Shown piece by piece: positions 52,112 through 52,984 of a stretch of DNA of 64,000 nucleotides. The position numbers and the translations under genes were made by a program. The stretch is from positions 2,409,332-2,473,331 of the forward strand of contig NZ_CP058215.1 of assembly GCF_013388255.1 (NCBI RefSeq). The letters are read 5' to 3'. This stretch comes from Methanolobus zinderi. Lineage in GTDB: Archaea; Halobacteriota; Methanosarcinia; Methanosarcinales; Methanosarcinaceae. The notes beneath the pieces are model-generated. The model ran no database searches and had not been told where the DNA came from. It was given only the letters and a program-made list of their open reading frames with translations. Positions within the stretch are counted from its first letter, which is position 1; every line of letters begins with the position of its first letter.

Positions 52112-52230
52112 CTGTTTTTACTACGATTTTTTTATACGATCTATAAAGATACTAATTAAAGAATACTTTCACCCCGCTCGGAGTCCCTTAATATATGCGG
52201 GAAGCCATTTTACAGACTGAGGTGAAACAG

Positions 52231-52311
52231 ATGGATGAATATTTTGAAAATCTGGTAGATAGAGCAACTTACTATGAACAGTTCGAAGAATTCGTTCGTT
52301 ATTACAAGTGA
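52231..52311 (+). CDS. 26-residue small protein with its own promoter and terminator
   Basis: ATG 52231 follows GAGGTGA by seven bases (a near-perfect Shine-Dalgarno), and a TATA-like ttaatatatgc lies about 40 bases upstream. The product MDEYFENLVDRATYYEQFEEF (then VRYYK) is 26 residues, amphipathic and rich in Tyr, Phe and Glu. A hairpin with a 9-bp stem follows 14 bases after the TGA. The full promoter, ribosome-binding site and terminator set makes a real gene likely despite its size. No known family comes to mind. Confidence 0.6.
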   Translation: MDEYFENLVDRATYYEQFEEFVRYYK

Positions 52312-52325
52312 TAGTATTCCGGCTT

Positions 52326-52384
52326 CTGCCGCAAATCCCTCCTGATTCCAAACGGTTTGCTTTCGTTGCGGCAGGGAGCCTACT
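52326..52384 (+). terminator. Stem-loop after the 26-residue gene
   Basis: CTGCCGCAA (52326-52334) and TTGCGGCAG (52376-52384) form a perfect 9-bp stem around a 41-base loop that contains a small CAAAC/GTTTG hairpin. T-rich sequence follows (ttcacttgttctccgtttatttctttc). It could end the transcript or be a structured 3' RNA. Confidence 0.5.
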
Positions 52385-52534
52385 TTCACTTGTTCTCCGT
52401 TTATTTCTTTCTTACCCGTATATAATTAAATCAAAATACGTAGCAACTTTTAAGGCCATTGTTTTTTTATTCTTAACCTGACAGAAATATAGGGATATAA
52501 AGTATATCTGAAATCAGAGAAGTTCAGGGAATTC

Positions 52535-52984
52535 ATGTCCAGATATAAAAAAGACCGCAGATCTCTAAAAGCACCATTGCATGTCTATGAAAAAAGACTT
52601 GAGAATATCGAAGAGATCATTGATGAGCTTCTGCACCTGCCAGAGGATACAGTGATCATAGTCGAAGGTAAAAGAGATGTCAGAGCACTTAACAGGCTTG
52701 GTATAAAAGGACATTTTGAAATGGCAACCCATGGCTCAACTTCAAATCTCTGCGAGGATATTGCAAAAACAGGCAAAAATGTGATAATCCTGACAGACTG
52801 GGACCGTCGGGGGAACATGCTCATGTCCGATCTGACAAAGCATTTCCATTCCCTTGGTGTAAACCCCGATGTCAGGATACGTGAACGTCTGATAGCTATT
52901 GTCCAGAAAGAAATAAAAGATGTGGAAGGCCTTCCCACCTACGTCCTGAAATTAAGACATATAACAGGATATTCCACACTTTAA
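52535..52984 (+). CDS. TOPRIM-domain protein
   Basis: A 149-residue protein with a single TOPRIM fold: VIIVEGKRDVRALNRLGI has the catalytic Glu and VIILTDWDRRGNML the DxD. It resembles the small archaeal TOPRIM proteins (UPF0292), related to DnaG and RNase M5, acting on nucleic acid. Substrate unknown. It stands downstream of a 420-bp region that holds the small gene and AT-rich promoter sequence. Confidence 0.87.
   Translation: MSRYKKDRRSLKAPLHVYEKRLENIEEIIDELLHLPEDTVIIVEGKRDVRALNRLGIKGHFEMATHGSTSNLCEDIAKTGKNVIILTDWDRRGNMLMSDLTKHFHSLGVNPDVRIRERLIAIVQKEIKDVEGLPTYVLKLRHITGYSTL

Follow-up and report, generated by a model that had tools for sequence, protein, structure and literature searches.

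The window analysed here is a stretch of 64,000 nucleotides from the genome of Methanolobus zinderi, which carries on its forward strand a very short protein-coding gene with its own expression signals. A TATA element (TTAATATAT, 52188-52196), whose position is unchanged in 28 aligned loci, is followed by a Shine-Dalgarno sequence (GAGGTGA, 52219-52225) that is kept in the loci of the genus, and by a 26-codon open reading frame (MDEYFENLVDRATYYEQFEEFVRYYK, 52231-52311) that runs from the ATG at 52231 to the TGA at 52309-52311. The first-pass annotation of this region had listed these three elements together with a 9-bp stem-loop after the stop codon, and all four are indeed present, position for position. 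What it overlooked is a promoter box on the same strand at 52164-52181, just outside the interval that it covered, which reads TACTTTCAC-CCC-GCTCGG and departs by one mismatch from the consensus TACTTTCACnnnGCTTGG; we call it the repair-regulon box. An in-frame ATG further upstream, at 52195, offers a 38-residue alternative for the small ORF; since this codon overlaps the TATA element, the 38-codon version is not credible, and 52231 was taken as the start.

The small ORF is a real gene. A translated search found matches to the peptide in 36 of 60 relatives, and within Methanolobus the ORF is present at full length in all 27 genomes, with 73-100% identity and a length of exactly 26 codons in every sequence (24 of them distinct). 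The genus assignment agrees with named sequence records: one locus of G012 matches Methanolobus halotolerans SY-01 at 100% identity along 4086 bases, and one of G000 matches Methanolobus sp. UBA118 at 95%. The recurrence of ORF length, start, Shine-Dalgarno sequence and TATA element across these 27 genomes lies far above chance. Neither the lack of peptide conservation nor the frameshifts in relatives that the first-pass annotation had named as signs against a gene are seen. Selection across the homologues, which it had proposed to gauge as Ka/Ks, is purifying, with a median dN/dS of 0.13 (237 of 276 pairs usable) and a pooled pN/pS of 0.20. Its proposal of a compact, independent small-protein gene is thus borne out by conservation, by codon-level selection and by the kept signals.

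Homologues extend beyond the genus. Other genera of the same family carry the small protein in 8 of 10 genomes; the translated search gave no match in the remaining two (G029 and G034), in which box sites are present. In Methanoperedens and related records, the ORFs behind the box sites have 41-45 residues and start with MDLFWSGLxxRAS; one such ORF, used as a query, matched in 46 of 119 genomes of the order (27 from family f5, 15 from f2, three weak matches from f3 and a weak one from f1). Among 20 loci inspected, partly by eye, a variant of the box precedes the family members at 8/8 f2 and 9/10 f5 loci, about 66-70 bases ahead of the start; it begins with TACTTTC, its second half is mostly two bases longer, and it differs from the Methanolobus form by 3-5 mismatches. 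Several further matches were taken as chance: those in f3 (three genomes), which at the two loci inspected (L220 and L221) are unlike the gene, the weak f1 match (G132), and a match in G043 (family f4) with 29% identity inside a 332-residue frame. The small protein belongs to a family not described before that extends to Methanoperedens. No family or chain in Pfam, NCBIfam or the PDB matches it, and among phages and plasmids no known family was found for it.

The conserved core of the protein reads (F/W)xxL(V/I)xRAxxY. From one family to the next, L8, R11 and for the most part A12 are conserved, and the C-terminal half varies, being unconserved outside the genus. AlphaFold folds a 38-residue sequence that includes the window peptide into one helix (mean pLDDT 93, run without an alignment) and does likewise for a 45-residue relative (pLDDT 83), although helices predicted on such short chains are weak evidence. 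Two motifs, the PCNA-binding (PIP) motif and the FxxA motif that binds RadA, were sought by eye and are unconserved in the family. Gene copy number and protein length also vary: one genome (G030) holds five copies (L032-L036), whose flanks are shared only in part and four of which have a box, G036 holds two copies, one without an evident box, and a homologue in G035 (L038) has an N-terminal extension of about 40 residues ahead of the conserved core.

The box upstream of the gene is an asymmetric, non-palindromic element of 18 bp that lies upstream of TATA and ends 8 bp ahead of a 6-bp TATA motif (TAWAWA-type). It precedes the small gene in 28/28 aligned loci, at position -66 or -67 and with 0-3 mismatches. 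A search of the 64-kb window for box plus TATA at up to three mismatches returned this single match (0.03 expected by chance), and the source genome as a whole has 10 such sites versus one for a reversed control; in a set of 17 genomes, 97 sites compare with seven for the reversed pattern. The box is rarer in G036 (a 4.2-Mb genome), G032 and G027, with 2-4 sites. A draw of 196 genomes from the phylum gave matches with no more than two mismatches in 33, namely in all 26 genomes of the order and in 7 of the 170 from elsewhere; for the reversed control, each row listed shows zero. Exact box-plus-TATA matches in 257 Gb of prokaryotic genomes amount to 65 sites in 63 stretches, of which 60 are labelled as Methanosarcinales taxa, two as uncultured archaeon (loci with a Methanoperedens-type small gene) and one as a Marine Group IV archaeon. 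A mobile element was considered and set aside: the viral contigs of IMG/VR contain no exact box-plus-TATA match. The copies of the small gene in G030 share limited flanks. Outside the order, in family f14 of the same phylum, a box was seen by eye before RPA-like ORFs at 3/4 sites (L312, L314 and L315, in G143, G170 and G161).

The genes behind the box give it a functional context. Of the 10 sites in the source genome, two precede a structured RNA and the others radA, hef, recQ, rpa, a radical-SAM repair gene, the small gene, a GyrI-like gene and a 57-aa ORF; in other genomes, uvrA, rmuC and xpf join the list. Profile searches name RadA (TIGR02236), Hef (NF010337), RecQ (TIGR01389), RPA (NF005553), UvrA (NF001503, in G001), RmuC (PF02646) and the GyrI-like protein (PF06445). 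The radical-SAM protein scores 281 bits against rSAM_link_UDG, below the 343.5 cut-off of that profile, and the ERCC4/Xpf nuclease behind the box in Methanoperedens is above the cut-off of PF02732 and, at 115 bits, below that of the NCBIfam Xpf profile. Automatic classing of the 65 exact sites yielded 32 repair or recombination genes, 13 structured RNAs, six small genes and 14 unclassed sites; inspection of the latter by eye added five structured RNAs (L100, L101, L122, L127 and L130) and the start of a radical-SAM gene (L155). Thus, the small gene shares its promoter box with recombination and repair genes.

The same association emerges when the genes, and not the pattern, are the starting point and their upstream regions are then scored for the box. 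All 26 genus genomes with a radA gene above the cut-off carry the box at up to four mismatches, versus 2/26 for the reversed box at the same threshold; in each of them it lies 114-118 bases ahead of the profile match. For the radical-SAM gene, the box is found at up to three mismatches in 25/25 near-complete loci, a count that leaves out two truncated ones (L307 and L308), and the control at up to four mismatches in 0/25. The upstream regions of recQ contain it in 20 of 26 cases at up to three mismatches and in 24 of 26 at up to four (one of these with an unusual spacing, on a truncated contig); the reversed control reaches 1/26 and 2/26, respectively. In the negative set, the upstream regions of orc1/cdc6, the box was found in 0/17 at up to three mismatches, and one region has it with four.

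Other elements recur under the box. A structured RNA not described before lies behind it at L073 (G000:C1:212550-212683, minus strand), at L098:7565-7644 and at 18 of the 65 exact-site loci. Its hairpin, aligned from 17 of these 18 (L118 was left out because its hairpin is incomplete), shows compensatory changes in 8/18 pairs and leaves CAUCCCCUC unpaired; Rfam has no match for it in the loci scanned, and its distance from orc1/cdc6 is about 2 kb in G000, G005 and G028. A second small protein, likewise encoded behind the box and without a Pfam match, comprises 57 aa at L158:841-1011 (G000) and 72 aa at L189 (G026), the two being alike by eye around (I/A)xDRYxxLLK. The leaders of radA and rpa (L078, L157 and orthologues), finally, contain inverted repeats that are conserved by eye, GTGCAC..GTGCAC for radA and GCCTCT..AGAGGC for rpa, which possibly serve translational autoregulation.

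The conserved ORF, the promoter box that it shares with repair genes and the predicted helix make it reasonably probable that the small gene is a member of a DNA-repair regulon, probably damage-induced, and that its product, as one helix, binds a partner in repair or the cell cycle. A regulator would bind the box upon DNA damage or stalled replication; we read the signal from the gene content behind the box, and the asymmetry of the box, its single orientation and its fixed spacing upstream of TATA lead us to favour an activator. It would co-induce radA, rpa, recQ, hef, the radical-SAM repair gene, the structured RNA and the small gene, and in some species uvrA or rmuC likewise. The damage induction of the box genes is read from gene content alone. 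To judge from its predicted fold and its conserved core, the small protein would be a partner-binding, single amphipathic helix carrying (F/W)xxL(V/I)xRAxxY, which most likely docks on one repair, replication or cell-division protein and modulates it during the response, much like the small proteins of the bacterial SOS response. Several observations weigh against this reading: orc1/cdc6, to which type of gene the Sulfolobus damage regulator belongs, lacks the box, the C-terminal half of the protein varies outside the genus, G029 and G034 have box sites but gave no match to the protein, and boxes are scarce in G036, G032 and G027, one copy of the gene in G036 having no evident one.

The box might instead be a constitutive promoter element of DNA-metabolism genes, or one linked to replication or growth, and the peptide a housekeeping accessory of replication or recombination. 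Both rpa and radA are also housekeeping genes of these processes, the structured RNA with the same box sits close to orc1/cdc6 in the three genomes named above, and a fixed box-TATA spacing would fit a basal promoter element too. However, the targets are heavy in repair functions (hef, recQ, uvrA, rmuC, xpf and rSAM-UDG), the orc1/cdc6 initiator genes themselves lack the box (0/17), and a box with only about 10 sites in the source genome is rare, unlike a basal element. We therefore regard this explanation as unlikely, and retain the repair regulon as the preferred one.

The 3' region of the small-gene transcript bears on a different possibility. The 9-bp stem seen by the first-pass annotation is present as the inner helix, P2, but the structure is larger than had been described, an outer helix, P1, having been missed. 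On the forward strand, the 5' arm of P1 (ACAAGTGA, 52304-52311) includes the stop codon; it is followed by the 5' arm of P2 (CTGCCGCAA, 52326-52334), a loop of 31 nt (CCCTCC..ATTCC plus GCTTTC, 52335-52365) that is CCCTCCnAATCCC-like in relatives, the 3' arm of P2 (TTGCGGCAG, 52366-52374) and the 3' arm of P1 (TCACTTGT, 52386-52393), after which comes a T-rich tail. The two helices are stacked, P1 pairing the region of the stop codon with the tail, and its pairing partner is kept in most relatives by eye. The fold of this region has a z-score of -5.1 against dinucleotide shuffles, with 0/200 shuffles equally stable. Pairs of P2 were counted by script, as one subclade has its stem in the wrong place in the MAFFT alignment: in a set of 17 distinct arm pairs, the fourth pair is C-G in 10 and T-A in 7, and the seventh is C-G, T-A or T-G in 15. 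These compensatory changes support the inner stem. The loop sequence CCCTCCnAATCCC...GCTTTC is kept by eye in 25/27 loci of the genus (it is lost in L012 and L027), and similar loops occur in three other genera (G028, G031 and G033). The T-rich tail after P1 is probably the 3' end of the transcript, and the structure as a whole fits a terminator and stabiliser while leaving room for an RNA function.

Thus, the structured 3' end would terminate and stabilise the mRNA, and the conserved CCUCC loop may lend the transcript a second, RNA-level role. In a stronger form of this idea, the transcript would be mainly a regulatory, dual-function RNA whose CCUCC/AUCCC loop binds the ribosome-binding sites of target mRNAs, with the ORF secondary or a ribosome-protection device. 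The stable fold, the compensatory pairs and the kept loop are in line with it, as is the unpaired CAUCCCCUC in the separate structured RNA of the regulon, and loops directed against ribosome-binding sites are known from sRNA154 of Methanosarcina (PMC5867862). Yet the ORF is under strong protein-level selection, and G036, G027, G032 and Methanoperedens keep the protein core without an evident comparable loop, which makes a mainly regulatory RNA improbable. The spRNAs and dual-function RNAs of M. mazei, sRNA154 for example, do resemble the gene in combining a short mRNA, a structured and possibly regulatory part and a tiny ORF (PMC11456600, PMC5867862); sRNA154 is nitrogen-responsive, whereas the small gene has a repair box and its ORF is conserved more widely than the loop. 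The anti-SD-like loop also brought the nitrogen-regulated M. mazei sRNA41, sRNA154 and sP26 into consideration, but nothing was found that links them to the small gene.

A role in regulating membrane or enzyme complexes, put forward in the first-pass annotation, gained no support. Precedents do exist in the same order: sP26 and sP36 (PMC11456600, PMC11957540) and MtrR (PMC13370731) of Methanosarcina mazei are small-protein regulators of a metabolic enzyme or membrane complex. One of them, sP26, is an independent small gene of similar size whose 23-aa product interacts with the glutamine synthetase GlnA1 (PMC11957540); the comparison is one of descriptions and not of sequences, and sP26 is reported in nitrogen metabolism and not with repair genes. 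Here, by contrast, the box is common to repair genes and not metabolic ones, no hydrophobic span or transmembrane helix is evident by eye, with D, E, K or R at 8 of the first 20 positions. A metabolic or membrane function is accordingly quite doubtful. It is very improbable that the ORF serves the Toprim-domain gene further downstream (52535-52984) as a leader peptide or attenuator, for although a Toprim-gene motif comes next in 26/27 genus loci, the motif search finds no such gene behind the small gene in L028-L030 (G109 nonetheless has one), the Toprim gene has, by eye, a TATA-like sequence ahead of it, and the small protein contains no attenuation-type codon run.

The repair regulon invites comparison with known damage responses. 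The bacterial SOS regulon includes small induced proteins such as SidA, TisB and DinI; its repressor, LexA, is cleaved with RecA, and the LexA box is palindromic and overlaps the promoter. The likeness is that one operator-like box unites a recombinase, a ssDNA-binding protein, excision repair, RmuC, RecQ and a tiny-protein gene. Genes of the SidA/TisB type lie in a damage regulon, and the small gene is placed here in a repair regulon that would probably be induced by damage. In contrast to the LexA-type palindrome, the box is asymmetric and located upstream of TATA, as for an activator; the small protein matches no known family in sequence and, by eye, lacks the transmembrane helix of SidA/TisB-type proteins.

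In archaea, the damage regulators found in the open-licence literature are those of the Sulfolobales, in which Orc1-2 acts through a hexanucleotide, the DDRE (ANTTTC), in target promoters and binds its own promoter (PMC9738581). Both systems would regulate a damage response via a short promoter element, and our box contains ACTTTC, which fits ANTTTC, six loose bases that are not diagnostic. The box differs in its 18 bp, its second half and its fixed spacing, and the orc1/cdc6 promoters do not carry it at up to three mismatches, so the Orc1-2 model is unsupported here, and with it orc1/cdc6 as a box-bearing regulator gene. The main texts of the open-licence literature gave no description of the box, its regulator or the peptide family; the Ribo-seq tables of M. 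mazei may include a member.

More tentatively, and as a proposal short of being probable, the Methanosarcinales may possess an SOS-like damage system of their own, in which an activator reads TACTTTCACnnnGCTTGG and switches on RadA, RPA, RecQ, Hef, in some lineages UvrA or RmuC, a structured RNA close to the origin and, as a checkpoint protein, a 26-aa helix that would hold replication or division until repair is done. The question is directly testable, as the box defines which genes are targets and how their promoters are laid out, and supplies both a reporter (the small gene) and a bait DNA for the regulator. RPA-like genes behind the box outside the order, in f14, would make the switch older than the order. 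Archaea would then have, in the small protein, a counterpart of the SOS-induced micro-proteins. The box shared by core DNA-repair genes points to an SOS-like response not described so far in these methane-producing archaea.
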